From NCBI GenBank assembly GCA_034521975.1, contig JAXHLR010000005.1, forward strand, positions 310,001 through 374,000: a stretch of 64,000 bases of DNA, in the 5' to 3' direction. This DNA is from Acidimicrobiales bacterium. GTDB taxonomy: Bacteria; Actinomycetota; Acidimicrobiia; Acidimicrobiales; SKKL01. A program made the translations under genes and the position numbers. The notes under the pieces are model-generated. The model did no database searches. It worked only from the letters and a program-made list of their open reading frames with translations, and was not told the DNA's origin. This document shows, in pieces, positions 26,743 to 35,124 of the stretch (positions are counted from its first letter, which is position 1; every line of letters begins with the position of its first letter).

Positions 26743-28283
26743 CGCTCGATCCCGCGGCGCTCCAGGTCCTGATCTCGCGCCTCACCGGCGTGGCCGAGGA
26801 GATGGGCGCGGTGCTGCGTCGATCGGCGTTCAGCCCCAACATCAAGGAGCGGGCCGACTGCTCGGCCGCCCTCTTCACCGCCGACGGCGCGCTGCTGGTC
26901 CAGGCCGAGCACATCCCCGTCCACCTGGGCTCGATGCCGGCGAGTGTGCAGGCGGCGATCGACGCGTTCGGCGATCAGCTCTCACCCGGGGACCAGATCG
27001 TGCTCAACGATCCGTTCGCGGGTGGGACCCATCTCAACGACATCACCGTGGTGGCCCCCTGCTTCGTGGACGGGCGCCTGGTCGGTTTCGCCGCCAACCG
27101 TGCCCATCACGCCGATGTCGGAGGTTCGGCCCCCGGGTCGATCCCCGCCGATGCCACCGAGATCTACCAGGAGGGGTTGCGCATCCCGCCCACTCGCCTC
27201 GACGAGGGTCTGCGTGGTCTGCTGCTGGCCAACTCGCGGACTCCCATGGAGCGGGCCGGCGATCTGGACGCCCAGGTGGGGGCCAACGTCTTGGGCGTCG
27301 AGCGCCTGGCGCGGTTCGCCGACGCTCCGCTCGACGAGGTGATCGACTACGGCGAACGGCGGATGCGGGCGGCGCTGGCCGAGCTGCCCGACGGCACGTG
27401 GAGGTTCAGCGACGTCGTCGACTCGACCGGGGCCGCTGCCGACCAGCAGAGGCCCGCCCGCATCGTGGTCGCCGTGGAGGTGGTCGGCGACCGGGTGCGC
27501 TTCGACTTCACCGGGACCGATCCTCAGCGACGGGGAAACGTCAACGCCGTCGAAGCTGTGACCGTGTCGTCGGTGGCGTTCGCGCTCCGGGCGGTTCTCG
27601 ATCCCACGATTCCCGCGAACGGGGGAGCGTTCCGAGCGGTCGAGGTGGTCACCGTCGCAGGCAGCATCGTGGCCGCGCTCTCACCAGCGGCGGTCGGGGC
27701 CGGCAACGTGGAGGTCAGCCAGCGGGTGGCCGATGTGTGCTTCGGCGCGCTCGCCCAGGTGGTGCCCGACCGGGTCCCGGCAGCCTCGCAGGGAACGATG
27801 AACAACGTGCTGATCGGCGGCGCCGGGTGGGTGTACTACGAGACCGTCGGCGGCGGCCAGGGTGGTGGCCCGTCGGGTCCGGGGATGAGCGGTGTCCACA
27901 CCGCGATGACTAATACGAAGAACACACCGATCGAGGCACTGGAACGGGCGTTCCCCATGAGAGTGCTGCGCTATCGACTGCGCCGGGGAAGCGGCGGTAC
28001 CGGATGGTCTCCGGGCGGGGAGGGCATCGAGCGCGATCTGCAGATGCTGGAGGATGTGACCGTGAGCCTGATCACCGAGCGCCGTGTCAGCCAGCCGTGG
28101 GGTCTCGCTGGGGGCGAGCCAGGTGCGGTGGGGGAGAACTGGCTGCTGCCTGGGGGTGACGAGGCCCGAGCCGAGCGCCTCCCCGACAAGTGCACGCTCC
28201 GCCTCGCGACTGGCGACGTGCTGCGAATGCTGACGCCGGGCGGAGGCGGCTGGGGGAGGGCTACCGGAACGGGTTCCACCTGA
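26739..28283 (+). CDS. hydantoinase/oxoprolinase HyuB-like subunit
   Basis: 514 residues, HyuB family, with LVQAEHIPVHLGSMP, DQIVLNDPFAGGTHLNDITV and GGGQGGGPSGPGMSGVHTAMTNTKNTP as landmarks and the usual TPGGGGWG end. It overlaps hyuA and should act with it. The last 350 bp of its coding region (27906-28255) recur at 32168-32517 beyond a 3.9 kb island. After that block the present C-terminus (RATGTGST) is island-specific. The 3' end also overlaps the converging membrane-protein gene by 23 bp. Confidence 0.92.
   Translation: MTLDPAALQVLISRLTGVAEEMGAVLRRSAFSPNIKERADCSAALFTADGALLVQAEHIPVHLGSMPASVQAAIDAFGDQLSPGDQIVLNDPFAGGTHLNDITVVAPCFVDGRLVGFAANRAHHADVGGSAPGSIPADATEIYQEGLRIPPTRLDEGLRGLLLANSRTPMERAGDLDAQVGANVLGVERLARFADAPLDEVIDYGERRMRAALAELPDGTWRFSDVVDSTGAAADQQRPARIVVAVEVVGDRVRFDFTGTDPQRRGNVNAVEAVTVSSVAFALRAVLDPTIPANGGAFRAVEVVTVAGSIVAALSPAAVGAGNVEVSQRVADVCFGALAQVVPDRVPAASQGTMNNVLIGGAGWVYYETVGGGQGGGPSGPGMSGVHTAMTNTKNTPIEALERAFPMRVLRYRLRRGSGGTGWSPGGEGIERDLQMLEDVTVSLITERRVSQPWGLAGGEPGAVGENWLLPGGDEARAERLPDKCTLRLATGDVLRMLTPGGGGWGRATGTGST
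27906..28255 (+). repeat. 350-bp direct repeat, left copy (hyuB 3' end)
   Basis: This block matches 32168-32517 at constant offset 4262 with 9 mismatches counted by eye, no gaps. All nine fall at third codon positions and are synonymous in the hyuB frame. It forms the left edge of the island. Confidence 0.9.
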
Positions 28284-28758
28284 AGGTCACCTCGTCACGG
28301 ATCAGCTCAGCGAGGAAGGCATCGTGGTCGCGCAGCGGCGCAAGCTCGTCGTGAAGGTCAGCGATGTTCATTCCAGCGTCGTCGGACATTGCGGGTTGGC
28401 CCCACGCTTCGTTCATCAGCCTGCCAGCAATTCGACGGTGGTCTTCGACGGCGGTCCGATACCCGTCGTAGAGCTTCGGGGCTTCGGCCCCGATCCAGAT
28501 CGAGGCCTCGGTCAGTTCGCGTTGGATTGCCATTACCTCGGTCGAGATCCGACGTCGCTCCGCTTCTGGGTTGGACTCGTCCCGGCGGCGGATGACGTAG
28601 GGGTACTCGCGGTAGGAGGCGAGGGCACCTACGGCCTTCGCCAGTACCTCACGCTTGCGCAGTCGTCGTTCCGCCGCAGCGGTGAATGCTGGGCTGAGGA
28701 GAGCAACGAGGAGCGCGAACCCACCTGCGATGAGGGCCGGGACGTACGCCGGGTTCAT
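28261..28758 (-). CDS. one-helix membrane protein, candidate CBASS effector
   Basis: 165 residues. Residues 4-30 form a single hydrophobic helix (YVPALIAGGFALLVALLSPAF), followed by a basic stretch (RRLRKREV) and a helical, charged cytosolic domain ending TFRWNPFR. No known effector domain (nuclease, phospholipase, TIR, Cap15 barrel) is recognised. It is the third gene of an operon with ATGA overlaps behind a CD-NTase and an E2-like protein, the position an effector takes in CBASS. A membrane-damaging or membrane-anchored role is inferred. Its end overlaps hyuB tail to tail. Confidence 0.7.
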   Translation of the reverse strand: MNPAYVPALIAGGFALLVALLSPAFTAAAERRLRKREVLAKAVGALASYREYPYVIRRRDESNPEAERRRISTEVMAIQRELTEASIWIGAEAPKLYDGYRTAVEDHRRIAGRLMNEAWGQPAMSDDAGMNIADLHDELAPLRDHDAFLAELIRDEVTFRWNPFR

Positions 28759-29180
28759 GCTGCGACCTTCGGGCTGTGCGCCGCTTCGGGACCCAACCAC
28801 TCGCCGGTCTCTCGCCAATGGGCTTCTCTGTAGAGGTGGAGGGCGATGTGGTCGATGAGGTCGCCCAGCCCGTCGCCGAACACCCACCGGTTCGTCTCGG
28901 CATCATCGGGATGCCACATGCACAGATGGTCGTCCGGGTAGCGATGCGGGGACTCGTTGGGGCCGTCGACCTCGACGCGGACGAAGGTCGGAGCATCGGC
29001 CCGAAAGCTGATTGTCGCCGTCCGATCCTCGAAGTGGCCGAGGACGATTGGAACGATGTACTCGATGCCCTCGCCGCTACGATGCCGATGGAAGGGCAGG
29101 CGACGTGCTCGTGCGGCCAGTTCGAACCGAGCCCGTTCGGTGTCGTTACCGAACCACGGCCCGTGGTAGCGCTTCCTCAT
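28755..29180 (-). CDS. E2-like (ubiquitin-conjugating-fold) protein of CBASS type
   Basis: 141 residues. The candidate catalytic cysteine is Cys87 in SPHRYPDDHLCMWHPDD, the arrangement of bacterial E2-like proteins: a histidine, then L-C followed by an aromatic and histidine. The C-terminal block HIALHLYREAHWRETGEWLGPEAAH is also typical of them. No E1 or JAB gene is present, matching the short form of type II CBASS, where an E2 alone joins the cyclase C-terminus to a target. ATG 29180 overlaps the CD-NTase stop, and its own TGA overlaps the next ATG, so the three proteins are translationally coupled. Confidence 0.78.
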   Translation of the reverse strand: MRKRYHGPWFGNDTERARFELAARARRLPFHRHRSGEGIEYIVPIVLGHFEDRTATISFRADAPTFVRVEVDGPNESPHRYPDDHLCMWHPDDAETNRWVFGDGLGDLIDHIALHLYREAHWRETGEWLGPEAAHSPKVAA

Positions 29181-30169
29181 CCCCCGAACGACCGAGTGGT
29201 CTTGACCTGGCTGCCAGCACCTACGGCGATCCCGCTCGCCGTGTAGCGAGCACCTTCGTTTCCGCCTCGGAGTGAAGCGGAGATCGATGCCTGGGACTGG
29301 CGGTCGGCCGGCTCCAGGTAGTTCGGAAAGGCAGCGGCGATGAGGTCCTGCACCTCGTCGTCGTCGTCCGATTCGAGCGCCTTGGCCAATGAGGAAGCGA
29401 GAGCGGTCAGCCGGCTGACCACGATGGCTCGATCGATGAGCAGCTTGATTGGCGGCGACACATCGGCCGGGTCGGGCGTGAGGCGCTTGGCCAGGTCGGT
29501 CGCCCCGTAGTCGGCGATGGCATGAAGGGCCTCCGGGACACCCATGCCGGACTCGACGGCCGAGAGAGCGAGTGCCTCGAGGTTGAAGCTGCACAGGCCC
29601 GGCTGCGTCGGCTGCTTGTTCCACGTCTTGGCCAAGCGAATCGCTCGTGCCCGGGTCACCCGGAGCGCCTTCGGGCCGTCGGTGAGCAGCTCGGTGTGCC
29701 GTTCAGGATGAGAGGCATCCCAGCTGCCCGCATGGAGGTTCGGGATCCAGAGACCGACAGCGTTCTTCCGGGTGAGCCCGACGATGAGGTCGACGCTCGG
29801 CCCGTCAGGGAACTTCACTTCGATCGCTCGCTTCGTCAGCCGCGTCGACACATCCCATCCGTCGTCGTTGAGGTCGGAGCGAACCTTGCTGCGGACCTGC
29901 TCCACAGCGTGGCCTGGGCCGTCGTCGTCGCCGTCCGGTCCGAGCGCACTCCAGACTCGCCTGTCGAGCACGACCCCACAGTCGGCATCAGTGTCGTCGT
30001 TGGCCGTTCCGTGGGCGATCGAGCCGGAGCGATAGGTGCGAAGCGCTCCGTCGAAGGACCCGGCTGAAGACAAGACAGCGTCCCGGTGCTCGCGGGCAGT
30101 GTTCAGAGTGGTGTCGCTCGGAGCGACGTCGTCGCGGATCTGATCGAGCAGGTCATGAATCTTGGACAT
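29177..30169 (-). CDS. CD-NTase-like nucleotidyltransferase (CBASS cyclase)
   Basis: 330 residues. The nucleotidyltransferase core is visible as Gly49-Ser50 (RSGSIAHGT), the acidic pair at Asp61/Asp63 (DTDADCG) and a third Asp127 in PSVDLIVGL. Such enzymes make cyclic di- or trinucleotides on phage infection. The protein ends in VKTTRSFGG: a flexible tail with terminal Gly-Gly, as expected for a cyclase that is conjugated by the adjacent E2-like protein. ATG 30169 follows an AAGGA ribosome site. It heads the leftward operon cyclase-E2-membrane protein. The nucleotide product is not predictable. Confidence 0.83.
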   Translation of the reverse strand: MSKIHDLLDQIRDDVAPSDTTLNTAREHRDAVLSSAGSFDGALRTYRSGSIAHGTANDDTDADCGVVLDRRVWSALGPDGDDDGPGHAVEQVRSKVRSDLNDDGWDVSTRLTKRAIEVKFPDGPSVDLIVGLTRKNAVGLWIPNLHAGSWDASHPERHTELLTDGPKALRVTRARAIRLAKTWNKQPTQPGLCSFNLEALALSAVESGMGVPEALHAIADYGATDLAKRLTPDPADVSPPIKLLIDRAIVVSRLTALASSLAKALESDDDDEVQDLIAAAFPNYLEPADRQSQASISASLRGGNEGARYTASGIAVGAGSQVKTTRSFGG

Positions 30170-30346
30170 CAGCAGGTCCTTCAGGCGGTCATCGGATTAC
30201 AGGCGTGTGGTTTGCCTCGGGTGTCAGTATGCGGGCGGGGTGTGACATTCGACCTGGGGATATCCAGGCACGGCTTGTATCGTAGCTCTTGACGCAGGTA
30301 TGTCACTTGTGGCATTTATTAAGTCCTGCCCCAGGAGAACGGACTC
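30170..30346. promoter_or_regulatory. divergent regulatory region of the CBASS operon and HTH gene
   Basis: This AT-richer gap separates the cyclase gene (leftward) from the HTH gene (rightward). CCTGG-GGATAT-CCAGG (30253-30268) is a perfect inverted repeat and a candidate operator. TTGACG at 30289-30294 is a good -35 box for the HTH gene, with AT-rich -10 candidates near 30312-30320. The HTH protein is the obvious candidate to bind here; that is inference. Confidence 0.5.
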
Positions 30347-30790
30347 ATGCGAAACTCACCCGTGAACGTTGTCGACCCCGCCGACCTTGCTGATGACGAG
30401 CGCGAGAAGCTTCGTCACGTCGCCGAGGATGCTGCGACCAGCGGCAAGATCGATCTTGAGTCGCTCCCTGAGGCCGTACGAGCCCAGCTTCTGTTTGCGG
30501 TTGCTGCCTACTCGCGTGGCGAATCCGTCGCGGCAGTCGCCACCGGCAAGCCCCTGACCTCGAACGAGGCAGCGAAGCTGCTCGGCGTGTCACGCACCCA
30601 TCTGACACGCCTCTGCGAAGAAGGCCGCATCGAGAGCTTCCCCGTTGGCAACGCAGTGCGTGTCCCTGCCGACGAGGTCATGCGCATCTTGACCGAACGG
30701 GGCCGAGCCAAGACGCAGGCCCGTGAGGCTGTGGCCACCGCCGACGATCGTCGTCGCGCCCGAGCCGCACGCGCAGCCGGCCTCCAGTAG
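30347..30790 (+). CDS. HTH (excisionase-fold) protein, antitoxin- or regulator-like
   Basis: 147 residues. A helical N-terminal half is followed by a MerR/excisionase-type winged HTH (LTSNEAAKLLGVSRTHLTRLCEEGRIESFPVGNAVRVPADEVMRI) and a basic, Ala/Arg-rich tail. This architecture is common in antitoxins paired with PIN toxins, but no PIN gene follows; instead a DUF3039-like gene converges 10 bp away. Placed divergently from the cyclase, it may control the CBASS operon, or may be a relic antitoxin or island excision factor. ATG 30347 follows an AGGAGA site. Confidence 0.78.
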   Translation: MRNSPVNVVDPADLADDEREKLRHVAEDAATSGKIDLESLPEAVRAQLLFAVAAYSRGESVAAVATGKPLTSNEAAKLLGVSRTHLTRLCEEGRIESFPVGNAVRVPADEVMRILTERGRAKTQAREAVATADDRRRARAARAAGLQ

Positions 30791-30800
30791 TCCTGGCAGG

Positions 30801-31853
30801 TCAGGACTCGGATGAGCCCTTGAGACGTCGGAGTAGGTCGAGGTTCTCCTGGCAACTCGGACAAATGGGGAACTTCTCGTAGTCCCGGTGGGCAACGACG
30901 CTGGCACCGCAGATGGCGACGATCTCGATGCCGGTCGCGTACGCCAAGGTCACTGTGGACCCCTTCGCGAGGTGGCTGAAGTGCTCGGAGCCGTCGCTCA
31001 ATGGGTTGACCGGTGTCCAGGCGTCGCCGTTGGTCAGCAGATCGTCGAGCTCGGCGGAGGTGGCCATGTGCTCGACCCACTCCTCGGTCACATAGGTGAA
31101 CCAGGAGTGCGGTGAGTCGTCATTCCTGCGCGGCGGGAGGTAGTCCCAGTCATCGATGCTCTCGCGTCCGGGCACCATGGCAAGCACGTCCATGGGAAAG
31201 CGATCCTGGTGTTCGAACTGAGCGAACTCCCAGCTCAGCTCCAGCACGGCCATGCCGCCCTCGTCGGGCATGACTCTCATCGACAGCGTGGCACCAAACA
31301 CCTCGGCGTCGACCGTTGATCCACGGGATCGGGCGGCGGCAAGGAGAGCACCCAGGACCTGGCCGTGCGCCTCCCGTTCGACTCCACACTCGACCTCGTA
31401 GGCCTCTTCGAGTCGGCGGTAGCGTTCGTCGGCCTCGGTTGGGGCGATGGGCGACGAGTCCGTCGCGAACCGCTCGAGATCCCGGTAGAAGTCACCGGAC
31501 CCGTCGTCCTTGCGCCGACCGGCGGCGAGGAGCCACCAGATACCGTCGTCGTCTTGCCACAGCGCGGCACGGCGGTCGCCGGTCTTCACCTTGATCACGT
31601 GACGGTCTGTGATGGCCACGATCCGCTCTCGAGGTGCCGCGTCGTCGCTGGCGATCAGGTTCGCCTTGTCGAGGACAGGGTGCTCCGCGTCCACCAGGGA
31701 GCAAGGTAGGAGATGCGTGGGGTCGGCGCCCATGTCCTCGACGACCGTCCGAAGCGCCACTCGAAGCTCGTCCGGCCCTACCTCCAGCGCAAGGTCGTCG
31801 ACCAGACATCGGAGCGTGGGCCGCACCAGTCGTTTGTCGTCCGAATCCGTCAT
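30801..31853 (-). CDS. uncharacterised protein with DUF3039-like Cys tail
   Basis: 350 residues from ATG 31853. The C-terminal 60 residues (SEHFSHLAKGSTVTLAYATG...AICGASVV...FPICPSCQ) resemble DUF3039, with cysteines in ICG and CPSC that could bind zinc. The N-terminal part includes TDRHVIKVKTGDRRAALWQDDDGIWWLLAAGRRKDD, reminiscent of small RelE/HigB-like folds, then a long region without known motif. It converges with the HTH gene. It could be a toxin or second defence component of the island; no direct evidence. Confidence 0.6.
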   Translation of the reverse strand: MTDSDDKRLVRPTLRCLVDDLALEVGPDELRVALRTVVEDMGADPTHLLPCSLVDAEHPVLDKANLIASDDAAPRERIVAITDRHVIKVKTGDRRAALWQDDDGIWWLLAAGRRKDDGSGDFYRDLERFATDSSPIAPTEADERYRRLEEAYEVECGVEREAHGQVLGALLAAARSRGSTVDAEVFGATLSMRVMPDEGGMAVLELSWEFAQFEHQDRFPMDVLAMVPGRESIDDWDYLPPRRNDDSPHSWFTYVTEEWVEHMATSAELDDLLTNGDAWTPVNPLSDGSEHFSHLAKGSTVTLAYATGIEIVAICGASVVAHRDYEKFPICPSCQENLDLLRRLKGSSES

Positions 31854-32068
31854 CGCTCGCTCCAGCTCGCAGCCGCATGGCCACGTCGATGATGCCCGAC
31901 ACAGTGGCGTGAGCCGCTGACCCTGGCCGTAGACAAGTGTCCGCCTCACGCATTGCACTCAGTCGACGCGTGCGTCGAGCCATGGCTGGTTCAGCTGCAG
32001 GTAGTACCTGGATCCACACCGCAATGGCCGACGCAGATCAAGTTGACTGCTGATTGGTGGCGGGAGTT
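31854..32068. other. island right-hand non-coding stretch
   Basis: No convincing gene in either direction. The sequence is AT-richer than its surroundings and presumably carries the promoter of the leftward gene at 30801-31853. It leads into the tandem 32-bp repeats and the second hyuB 3' copy. Confidence 0.5.
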
Positions 32069-32100
32069 CCTGGCCAGTCGGGAATTCACACGTGCATGAC
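32069..32100 (+). repeat. 32-bp tandem repeat, copy 1
   Basis: A 32-bp unit beginning CCTGGCCAGTCGGGAATTCA recurs 72 bp downstream with one mismatch. In frame it encodes PGQSGIHTCMT, a HyuB family motif. Confidence 0.85.
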
Positions 32101-32140
32101 CAACGCTGTCGACGAAGGACACCAGTCGGTGGTGGGCGTG

Positions 32141-32172
32141 CCTGGCCAGTCGGGAATTCATACGTGCATGAC
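32141..32172 (+). repeat. 32-bp tandem repeat, copy 2
   Basis: Second copy of the unit at 32069-32100, running directly into the right-hand 350-bp hyuB repeat. It marks the right edge of the island. Confidence 0.85.
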
Positions 32173-32517
32173 AAATACGAAGAACACACCGATCGAGGCA
32201 CTGGAACGGGCGTTCCCCATGAGAGTGCTGCGCTATCGACTGCGCCGGGGGAGCGGCGGTACCGGATGGTCTCCGGGCGGGGAGGGCATCGAGCGCGATC
32301 TGCAGATGCTGGAGGACGTGACCGTGAGCCTGATCACCGAGCGCCGTGTCAGCCAGCCGTGGGGTCTCGCTGGGGGCGAGCCCGGTGCGGTGGGGGAGAA
32401 CTGGCTACTGCCTGGGGGTGACGAGGCCCGAGCCGAGCGCCTGCCCGACAAGTGCACGCTCCGCCTCGCGACTGGCGACGTGCTGCGAATGCTGACGCCC
32501 GGCGGCGGCGGGTGGGG
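32168..32517 (+). repeat. 350-bp direct repeat, right copy (hyuB 3' end)
   Basis: Partner of 27906-28255. Similarity stops sharply after the TGGGG of the GGGGWG codons; the sequence beyond is unrelated in the two copies. Confidence 0.9.
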
Positions 32518-32605
32518 CCCATCAGTGCGGTCTGGCGATCTCTGACCGTCCGAACGAGTCGTGCGGCTCTACGCCAACTGGGAGCAGGCTGGTAGGCTCA
32601 TCCCA

Positions 32606-32842
32606 ATGGAAGCTACCGTTGACGAGGTCGGTCGGATCGTGGTCCCCAAGGCCTTGCGAGACAGGCTGCGGCTCACGCCAGGCATGAAGGTCGATGTCAG
32701 CGAATACGGGGACGGGCTGCACATCACTCCAGTGAGCCGTACTGCTCGACTCGAGGATCGCGATGGGCGCCTCGTTGCCGTCGCGGAAACACCTGTCACC
32801 GATGACGACGTGTTGGCGCTGGTCGACGCCGGCCGTCGATGA
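32606..32842 (+). CDS. vapB: AbrB-type VapB antitoxin (pair 2)
   Basis: 78 residues. The N-terminus EATVDEVGRIVVPKALRDRLRLTPGMKVDVSEYGDGLHI is a SpoVT-AbrB swapped-hairpin DNA-binding domain; the C-terminal 30 residues would cover the toxin. ATG 32606 starts the domain. Its TGA overlaps the ATG of the PIN gene, the standard coupled antitoxin-toxin order. It lies just outside the island's right repeat. Confidence 0.88.
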   Translation: MEATVDEVGRIVVPKALRDRLRLTPGMKVDVSEYGDGLHITPVSRTARLEDRDGRLVAVAETPVTDDDVLALVDAGRR

Positions 32843-33249
32843 CCGAGGTGGTCCTGGACACCAGCGTGGCTGTCCCGTTGCTCGTGACCTCGCATGTCGC
32901 TCACCGAGCTGTCGGTGCGTCGCTCGGCGATCGGTCGGCCGCGCTCGCCGGGCATGCCTTGCACGAGACGTACGCGGTCCTCACTCGGCTACCGGGCGAC
33001 GCACGTGTCGCCCCGGCGGACGCTGTCCGTCTCCTGCGGGAGCGATTCGAGCCGGCGGCGCTCCTCGATGCCAAGTCGGTTCGCTCGGCCCCAGCCGTCC
33101 TTGCCGGTGCCGGCGTCGCAGGCGGAGCCACCTACGACGGGTTGGTCGCCCTTGCTGCGCTGTCGGCGGGCGTTCCGCTCGCAAGCCGGGATCGACGCGC
33201 GCTGAGCACCTACCGCCTCCTGGGTGTGTCGGTAGAGACGTTCGGTTGA
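32839..33249 (+). CDS. vapC: VapC PIN-domain toxin (pair 2)
   Basis: 136 residues. Acidic PIN residues Asp7 (VVLDTSVAVPLL), Glu43, Asp100 (GATYDGLVALAAL) and Asp118 (ASRDRRA) are all present, so the ribonuclease site is complete. It overlaps its antitoxin gene by 4 bp. RNA target unknown. Confidence 0.88.
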   Translation: MTEVVLDTSVAVPLLVTSHVAHRAVGASLGDRSAALAGHALHETYAVLTRLPGDARVAPADAVRLLRERFEPAALLDAKSVRSAPAVLAGAGVAGGATYDGLVALAALSAGVPLASRDRRALSTYRLLGVSVETFG

Positions 33250-33298: not shown

Positions 33299-33631
33299 GT
33301 GGCCGACACCATCGTCGAGGACCCTGGTGGAGACTCCGACCGGCCGCGCGAGGAGCCAGCTGACTCGACACGGAGCGACCACCGGCGACGCAACAGCGGT
33401 TGGTTGGCTCGCTTCGTCGGCCTCGTCATCGGGGGGATCGTCCTCAGCGGTGCACTGCTGCTGTGGATCGTGGTCTCGGTCGGTGAGCCATCCGAGTTCA
33501 GGGCACCCGAGACGGGGAGCCTGCTCGGCTCGACCGGTTCGTGTTCGCGAGCCAGTGTGATTGCAAAGTGCAGCGAGCGCGCTAGCGTTTTGCGACATGA
33601 AGATCCTCTACCTTCGAAACGTCCCGGATGA
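33299..33631 (+). CDS. possible small single-helix membrane protein
   Basis: 110 residues from GTG 33299 after an AAAGG site. A charged N-terminus precedes one hydrophobic helix ([27 protein letters not shown]). The last 12 codons overlap the start of the next antitoxin gene, and no family is recognised. It may be real or a chance frame; an earlier natural end is not visible. Confidence 0.35.
33561..33588 (+). promoter_or_regulatory. candidate promoter of vapBC pair 3
   Basis: TTGCAA (33561-33566) and TAGCGT (33583-33588), 16 bp apart, lie just before the antitoxin ATG at 33597. The palindromes AGCGCGCT and CGCTAGCG between and over the boxes could serve as autoregulatory operator. No room remains for a leader, so the transcript would be leaderless or nearly so. 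Confidence 0.4.
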
Positions 33632-33818
33632 GGTCGGCGAGCGGCTCGAACGATTGGCTGCCCGTGAGGGGCTGTCGGTCTCCGCGTTCGCGACCCGCGA
33701 GCTGGCCGTCGTCGCCCGCCGGGCCGACAATCCCGCCCTGCTTGCGGACCTTCCCGACCTGGGTGTGGATGCGGCGGTCACCGTCGGCGATGTCGAGGCT
33801 GGTCGCGGCGAGCGGTGA
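33597..33818 (+). CDS. vapB: ribbon-helix-helix antitoxin (pair 3)
   Basis: 73 residues. [36 protein letters not shown] is a FitA/VapB-type ribbon-helix-helix DNA-binding domain, followed by a short toxin-binding tail. The stop overlaps the GTG of the PIN gene. This antitoxin fold differs from pairs 1 and 2, so the three vapBC sets are not duplicates of each other. Confidence 0.88.
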
Positions 33819-34198
33819 TCGTGATCGACGCCTCGGCGGCAGTGCTCGGTCTGCTCAACGATGGCGACGCCAGAGCGATGCTCCGTGAGGCCTCGGTCGT
33901 CTGTCCTCACCTGGCCGACTCGGAGGTGGTCCAGGCGCTCCGCGCCCAGGTCTTGCGGGGCGAGGTCAACGCGACCGATGCCACTCGAGCCGTCGAGGTG
34001 TGGCGGCGCCTCGGCATCGAGCGTGTTGGTGTCACGGGTCTGCTCGCTCGCATGTGGGAGCTGCGCGACAACGTCGGTGCCTACGACGCCACCTACGTCG
34101 CGGTCGCGGAGGCGCTGGAGGCGCCGCTCGTCACCGCTGATGGTCGACTTGCTCGCGCTCCAGGACCTCGGTGCACGGTCACCGTCATTCGCCGTTGA
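33815..34198 (+). CDS. vapC: VapC PIN-domain toxin (pair 3)
   Basis: 127 residues with Asp5 ([13 protein letters not shown]), Glu37, Asp91 ([14 protein letters not shown]) and Asp109 ([10 protein letters not shown]). The PIN active site is complete. GTG start overlaps the antitoxin stop. Ribonuclease toxin; target not predictable. Confidence 0.88.
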
Positions 34199-34242: not shown

Positions 34243-35124
34243 TCAGGCGATCGGCAGCTCGAGCTCGGAACCATCAGCGTCGAGGTAGCGGACCGTGTCG
34301 CTGCCCAAGCGTTTGCGCATCACGTCGATCGCCTCGGGGTTCTGGTCCACGAGGACGAAACGCCGACCGAGCTCACGGGCGACGGCACCGGTGGTGCCGG
34401 AGCCGGCGAAGAAGTCGAGCACCGGCTCGCCAGGGGCTGACGATGCCGAGATGACTCGGCGGAGGATCCCCTCGGGCTTCTGGTTCGGGTAGCCGGTCTT
34501 CTCGTTGCCGTTGGTGGGGACGATGGTGTGCCACCACACGTCGGTGGGGAGCTTGCCCCGCTCGCGCTTGTCGGTGCTGACGAGCCCGGGCGCCATGTAG
34601 GGGATCCGTTCGATCGCGTCCTGGTCGAAGTGGTGGGCGCCGCGCTCCTTCACATAGACGAGGAGCGTGTCGTGCTTCTGGGGCCAACGGTCCTTGGCCC
34701 GGCCCCCGTAGTCGTAGGCCCAGATCACCTCGTTGAGGAAGTTCTGGCGGCCGAAGATCGAGTCGAGTGCGACCTTGCAGTAGTGCGCCTCCCGCTGGTC
34801 GAGGTGGAGGTAGAGGGTGCCGTCTCGGCGCAGCAGTCGGTGGGCGTGCTCGAGCAGTGGCCCGATGAACCCGAGGTAGTCGTCGTAGGCGTCGAGATAC
34901 CCGATGCGCGAGAGCTCGGTGGTGGCGTAGCTGTGTCCCCCGAACCCGACGCGGTCGCCGCTGGCGGAGCGTTCGGTCCGCAACGTCGAGCGCTGCTGCG
35001 CCGTGCCGGTGTTGAACGGCGGGTCGATGTAGATGAGCTGGAAGCTCTCGTCGGCGAGGGCGGGGAGAAGCGACGCCGCGTCGGCCAGGATCACGTGGTC
35101 GCCGTGCCGGTCGAGGCTCAGCAT
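34243..35124 (-). CDS. solitary DNA methyltransferase (N6-adenine/N4-cytosine)
   Basis: 293 residues. The catalytic DPPF motif (34-37) precedes the SAM-binding motif DFFAGSGTTG near residue 240, the order of beta-class amino-methyltransferases. No restriction endonuclease gene is adjacent, so it is an orphan enzyme, possibly regulatory like CcrM, or a survivor of a restriction system. It converges with vapC pair 3, next to the accessory region. Recognition sequence unknown. Confidence 0.88.
   Translation of the reverse strand: MLSLDRHGDHVILADAASLLPALADESFQLIYIDPPFNTGTAQQRSTLRTERSASGDRVGFGGHSYATTELSRIGYLDAYDDYLGFIGPLLEHAHRLLRRDGTLYLHLDQREAHYCKVALDSIFGRQNFLNEVIWAYDYGGRAKDRWPQKHDTLLVYVKERGAHHFDQDAIERIPYMAPGLVSTDKRERGKLPTDVWWHTIVPTNGNEKTGYPNQKPEGILRRVISASSAPGEPVLDFFAGSGTTGAVARELGRRFVLVDQNPEAIDVMRKRLGSDTVRYLDADGSELELPIA

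Follow-up and report, generated by a model that had tools for sequence, protein, structure and literature searches.

A predicted short type II CBASS operon with a 1TM-family effector adjoining hyuB in an Acidimicrobiales genome

Within the 64,000-nucleotide stretch of Acidimicrobiales DNA analysed here (the window), a compact operon ending in a gene for a small membrane protein raises the question of which defence class the locus belongs to and what that last protein would do. Three ORFs on the minus strand, joined by ATGA, occupy 28261-30169: a CD-NTase (oligonucleotide cyclase; 29177-30169) of 330 aa with the C-terminal tail TTRSFGG, a stand-alone E2-like protein (28755-29180) of 141 aa with Cys87 as its active-site residue, and a protein of 165 aa (28261-28758) whose N-terminal transmembrane (TM) helix is predicted to continue into a cytosolic helical bundle. 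The ATGA overlaps fall at 29177-29180 between cyclase and E2 and at 28755-28758 between E2 and the putative effector. These ORF positions and overlaps are exactly those of the initial annotation, which had also recognized the layout of a short type II CBASS. In support of that assignment, PADLOC models matched all three proteins of the operon far beyond chance, namely PDLC00777 for the cyclase (E=1.9e-106), PDLC00867 for the E2 (E=4.7e-31) and the '1TM' models PDLC00666 (E=3e-22) and PDLC00665 (E=4e-16) for the effector, and the gene order is kept in relatives. Family models and a conserved three-gene order thus support reading 28261-30169 as an E2-only, short type II CBASS operon whose effector is of the 1TM class.

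The cyclase had been identified from Gly49-Ser50, Asp61/Asp63 and Asp127, and this identification stood, as none of these residues varies among eight aligned cyclases, the others of which are 30-49% identical to the window protein. Pfam gave a weak SMODS match and nothing else, and the match to NCBIfam CBASS_cyclase_b (E=1.3e-19) was under that model's cut-off. A profile of the cyclase clade, when searched against the PDB, found 6p82 (deposited as 'Nucleotidyltransferase') at E=6e-29, CdnD 9ntn at E=3e-12 and CdnC 6p80 at E=1e-7. The C-terminus in relatives consists of a conserved TR[SA][FYW]G followed by zero to eight residues of varying kind, so that the final residue is variable among them; the window cyclase itself ends in Gly-Gly. 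Cyclases of Cap2-type CBASS have a conserved Gly or Ala at their final position (PMC10097602). Since the cyclase tail here does not have that fixed terminal Gly/Ala, E2 chemistry may differ in this clade. PMC11153139 cites a short type II study as proposing cyclase-cyclase conjugation. Trimming of the tail would reconcile the variable overhang with a Cap2-type Gly/Ala end. A biochemical paper on a Serratia E2 from a short type II system is said to describe both processing of the cyclase tail and cyclase-to-cyclase conjugation, and in the short type II literature the trimming is reportedly done by the E2 itself.

Our results also bear out the earlier description of the second protein as E2-like, with Cys87 and with no E1 or JAB gene beside it. 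In addition to the PADLOC match, Cys87 is invariant in an alignment of fifteen E2 sequences, and neither an E1 nor a JAB gene is present in the insert that holds the operon (28256-32167). The predicted structure (pLDDT 85.9) has the topology H-E-E-E-E-(Cys)-H, in the order found in E2 enzymes. Its 13 top Foldseek neighbours were all UFC1 E2 proteins, with a best E-value of 0.12 and none at E<=0.001.

To place the operon among its relatives, GTDB genomes were searched with an alignment of three cyclase sequences, which yielded 24 loci from Actinobacteria, Dehalococcoidia, Dormibacterota and one Bacillota MAG. Two of these end at a contig edge inside the cyclase; in all 22 complete loci of this cyclase-seeded sample, CD-NTase, E2 and 1TM genes follow one another in that order on one strand. 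Searches seeded by the effector instead found an E2 gene adjoining it in 8 of 10 matched loci, and they also led to Rhodococcus, Streptomyces and Sinomonas plasmids with the same neighbour genes. The 1TM protein is therefore the standard partner of the cyclase/E2 pair and not an odd one. A scan of GTDB contigs with the single effector protein gave zero matches, and one further effector match, in G021 (loci L004/L017), was rejected, as it was marginal (E=2.5e-4) and lay within an ATPase-like ORF. An effector relative was not found in the phage collection and a cyclase scan of viral contigs gave zero matches; a phage origin is therefore not supported.

The third protein had been described as an unfamiliar effector of 165 residues with one N-terminal membrane helix and no recognised effector fold. 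Its length and single hydrophobic segment are as described, and known folds and families did not match it: Pfam gave zero family matches, Foldseek searches with the effector model returned generic helical bundles only from the PDB (best E 0.91) and from BFVD (best E 0.80), and no relative emerged when PDB sequences were searched with a profile of the effector family. However, the protein is not unfamiliar, as PADLOC lists its family as '1TM' and the DefenseFinder paper counts 1TM among the CBASS effector classes (PMC9090908). For the same reason, the earlier suggestion that the output may be new is not supported. We found no biochemical or phage data for this clade in the literature. The operon is best described as an intact and unexceptional representative of a defence class already known, its effector being catalogued but little understood.

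An alignment of 23 effectors (A3), in which the window protein is 25-34% identical to its relatives, defines a set of constrained positions. R34, Y49, R58, E67, R68, Q79, R108, G112 and W119 are invariant, and E51, P53, Y54, R59, R70, S72, L82, E92, D127 and L157 nearly so; the conserved motif YxExPYxIRRR lies within the resulting Arg/Tyr/Trp-rich patch. Each of the 23 proteins has essentially one hydrophobic segment near its N-terminus followed by a basic stretch. Under the positive-inside rule, this predicts a cytosolic location for the C-terminal part; the Pro/Thr/Ser-rich N-terminal extension of some relatives would then sit outside the cytosol. In the AlphaFold model (pLDDT 92.6, pTM 0.79), the first helix (H5-50) spans 46 residues as TM segment plus stalk and runs continuously into the helical bundle. 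A polar, Arg- and aromatic-rich invariant patch of this kind suggests a phosphate-bearing ligand.

The position of the operon suggests how it may have arrived. The effector gene, the last of the operon, overlaps the stop of the convergent hyuB gene. The hyuB 3' end adjoining the operon (27906-28255, plus strand) is 97.4% identical to a detached hyuB 3' fragment (32168-32517, plus strand), the two forming a 350-bp direct repeat that marks the left and right boundaries. In view of this duplication, the ~4.26 kb from 27906 to 32167 is best read as an insertion that supplied hyuB with a new 3' end, the original one now lying downstream. Detached hyuB 3' fragments with about the same start occur in roughly 12 genomes; in other families of the order, they share a common start at about residues 375-390 of the 514-aa form (~codon 388, TGACNAAYAC) and mostly reach the gene end. 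In four genomes (L071, L073, L075 and L082), a gene for a large serine recombinase with Resolvase, Recombinase and zinc-ribbon domains begins ~20 bp from the hyuB breakpoint. Elsewhere the cargo at the site is defence-like: BrxC/D- and PbeA-like genes accompany a type I RM methylase in L065, an OLD-like ATPase occurs in L075 and, together with a type II methylase, in L078, and a type III RM system adjoins a hyuB fragment away from the hyuB locus in L068. Site-specific integration is favoured over homologous recombination, given that the breakpoint is fixed and that serine recombinases lie next to it in other genomes, and hyuB ~codon 388 looks like an order-wide integration site. Integration of phage 21 and e14 at icd, with replacement of the 3' end of the target gene, is a textbook parallel. 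The genome of the window contains no PF00239 recombinase, so the copy described here would be a relic, have moved in trans or have come from homologous recombination.

Several further features were noted at this site. A tandem 72-bp unit (GGCCAGTCGGGAATTCACACGTGCATGAC...) occupies 32056-32175, directly before the detached hyuB fragment, and DNA similar to it is found at the same point in or adjoining hyuB in other families (G003, G010, G060, G068 and G502), in some cases as an apparent insertion within full-length hyuB. Near-identical AAA ATPases of 395 aa from two families stand alone between hyuB and a detached 3' fragment (L080, 2323-3507; L081, 1807-2994), in the manner of a single-gene cassette. 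The insertion in the window also holds two genes besides the operon. The first, divergent from it, encodes an HTH_17/excisionase-like DNA-binding protein (30347-30790, plus strand; Pfam HTH_17 E=4e-11, TIGR01764 E=2e-10), and the second is an ORF with a C-terminal DUF3039 domain (30801-31958, minus strand; Pfam E=2e-11) whose translation probably begins at an internal ATG (31853). One Acidimicrobiales MAG (L041) carries the block from the cyclase rightward, including both genes, at 80% identity. We rejected both ORFs as CBASS parts, since they adjoin the operon in L041 only; the DUF3039 ORF is a passenger, and the HTH_17 protein is a passenger or possibly a regulator of the operon. Directly downstream of the insertion lie two toxin-antitoxin-like pairs, one of MazE type with a PIN protein and the other a short antitoxin-like ORF with a PIN protein (32561-33249 and 33597-34198), adjoined by a solitary N6/N4 DNA methylase (34243-35124). 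Compared with G001, a relative from the same genus, the stretch between hyuB and an S4-domain gene is different.

Judged by its sequence, then, the locus combines members of the cyclase, E2 and 1TM families with conserved active-site residues in a conserved gene order, and it seems likely that it encodes a short type II CBASS in which a nucleotide signal triggers breach of the membrane by the 1TM effector. By what is known of CBASS biology, phage infection would lead the CD-NTase to make a cyclic (oligo)nucleotide, with the E2 controlling the cyclase through the action of Cys87 on its C-terminal tail. From anatomy only, the nucleotide would then bind the conserved Arg/Tyr/Trp patch of the cytosolic bundle, which may oligomerise or shift, move the rigidly joined membrane helix and so breach the inner membrane; the infected cell would halt growth or die ahead of phage release. 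Movement of a membrane helix upon nucleotide binding is favoured by analogy with Csx23, in which the cytosolic domain, on binding cA4, perturbs the TM domain (PMC11014256), and with CBASS membrane effectors that oligomerise (reviewed in PMC10419184). An unlikely alternative is that killing is not the role of the 1TM protein, which would instead act as a membrane anchor or a regulator and keep the cyclase and E2 at the inner membrane, the output lying elsewhere. A small protein with no recognised enzymatic domain, whose coupling to E2 and cyclase is strict (22 of 22 loci), might serve such a purpose; however, no other effector candidate was seen in the window operon, and both PADLOC and DefenseFinder class the 1TM family as an effector.

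Two other readings appear less probable still. The operon might be a decayed or silent relic on an immobile insertion, as the absence of a PF00239 serine recombinase from the genome and the remnant nature of the adjoining hyuB fragment could indicate, but all three of its genes remain intact and no invariant residue is missing, and its closest relative (L041, 80% DNA identity, with a contig that ends inside the cyclase) has the same arrangement as far as it is present. It is equally doubtful that the system works by inhibition, with a constitutively made nucleotide silencing the membrane protein until phage depletion of that nucleotide releases it. Decoy or inhibitory nucleotide signals do appear in reports on Panoptes-type systems (PMC12657218, PMC12657230). 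However, an E2 in the window operon implies regulated activation. Moreover, the Panoptes synthase is of the mini-Cas10/CRISPR-polymerase type rather than a CD-NTase, and no E2 is known to accompany it. Returning to nucleotide-triggered membrane breach as the preferred reading, we tentatively extend it to a proposal that we consider plausible but short of probable: 1TM may be a structurally new cyclic-nucleotide receptor, an all-helical bundle with an invariant patch (YxExPYxIRRR, E67-R68, Q79, R108 and W119) that signals through one continuous helix into the membrane. Control would lie with an E2 whose substrate is the cyclase tail (TR[SA][FYW]G and its variable overhang), trimming of the tail being needed beforehand.

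The locus is a further intact case of E2-only CBASS, and the conserved residue map obtained for the catalogued 1TM class makes the questions of nucleotide sensing and membrane action directly testable. The hyuB attachment site points to one way in which defence genes of this kind may move through the order. Among known systems, the Cap15/2TM effectors, which combine two TM helices with a beta-barrel or a Nudix/SAVED sensor, do not describe the 1TM protein, with its one TM helix, all-helical model and lack of a Pfam match. Csx23, a membrane effector of type III CRISPR, resembles 1TM in joining an N-terminal TM domain to a cytosolic sensor domain, but it has two TM helices and another fold, and no sequence relation between the two is shown. 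Type II CBASS of the Cap2/Cap3 kind (E1-E2 plus JAB) has the E2-type cysteine in common with the window operon, and its conjugation logic is assumed to be alike, whereas the window operon has no E1 domain or JAB protease and its cyclase clade no fixed C-terminal Gly/Ala. The catalogued 1TM proteins of PADLOC and DefenseFinder agree with the window effector in the single N-terminal TM helix and in operon position, and it is to the PADLOC model that it matches by HMM, although at 25-34% identity to its relatives in A3 it is a divergent member. The remaining comparison is with the short type II CBASS itself (CD-NTase, stand-alone E2 and effector). The window operon differs from it in a cyclase clade (Actinobacteria, Dehalococcoidia) nearest the solved CdnD-like enzymes and in the TR[SA][FYW]G tail with its variable overhang, but gene content, gene order, ATGA coupling and the absence of E1 and JAB are all alike.
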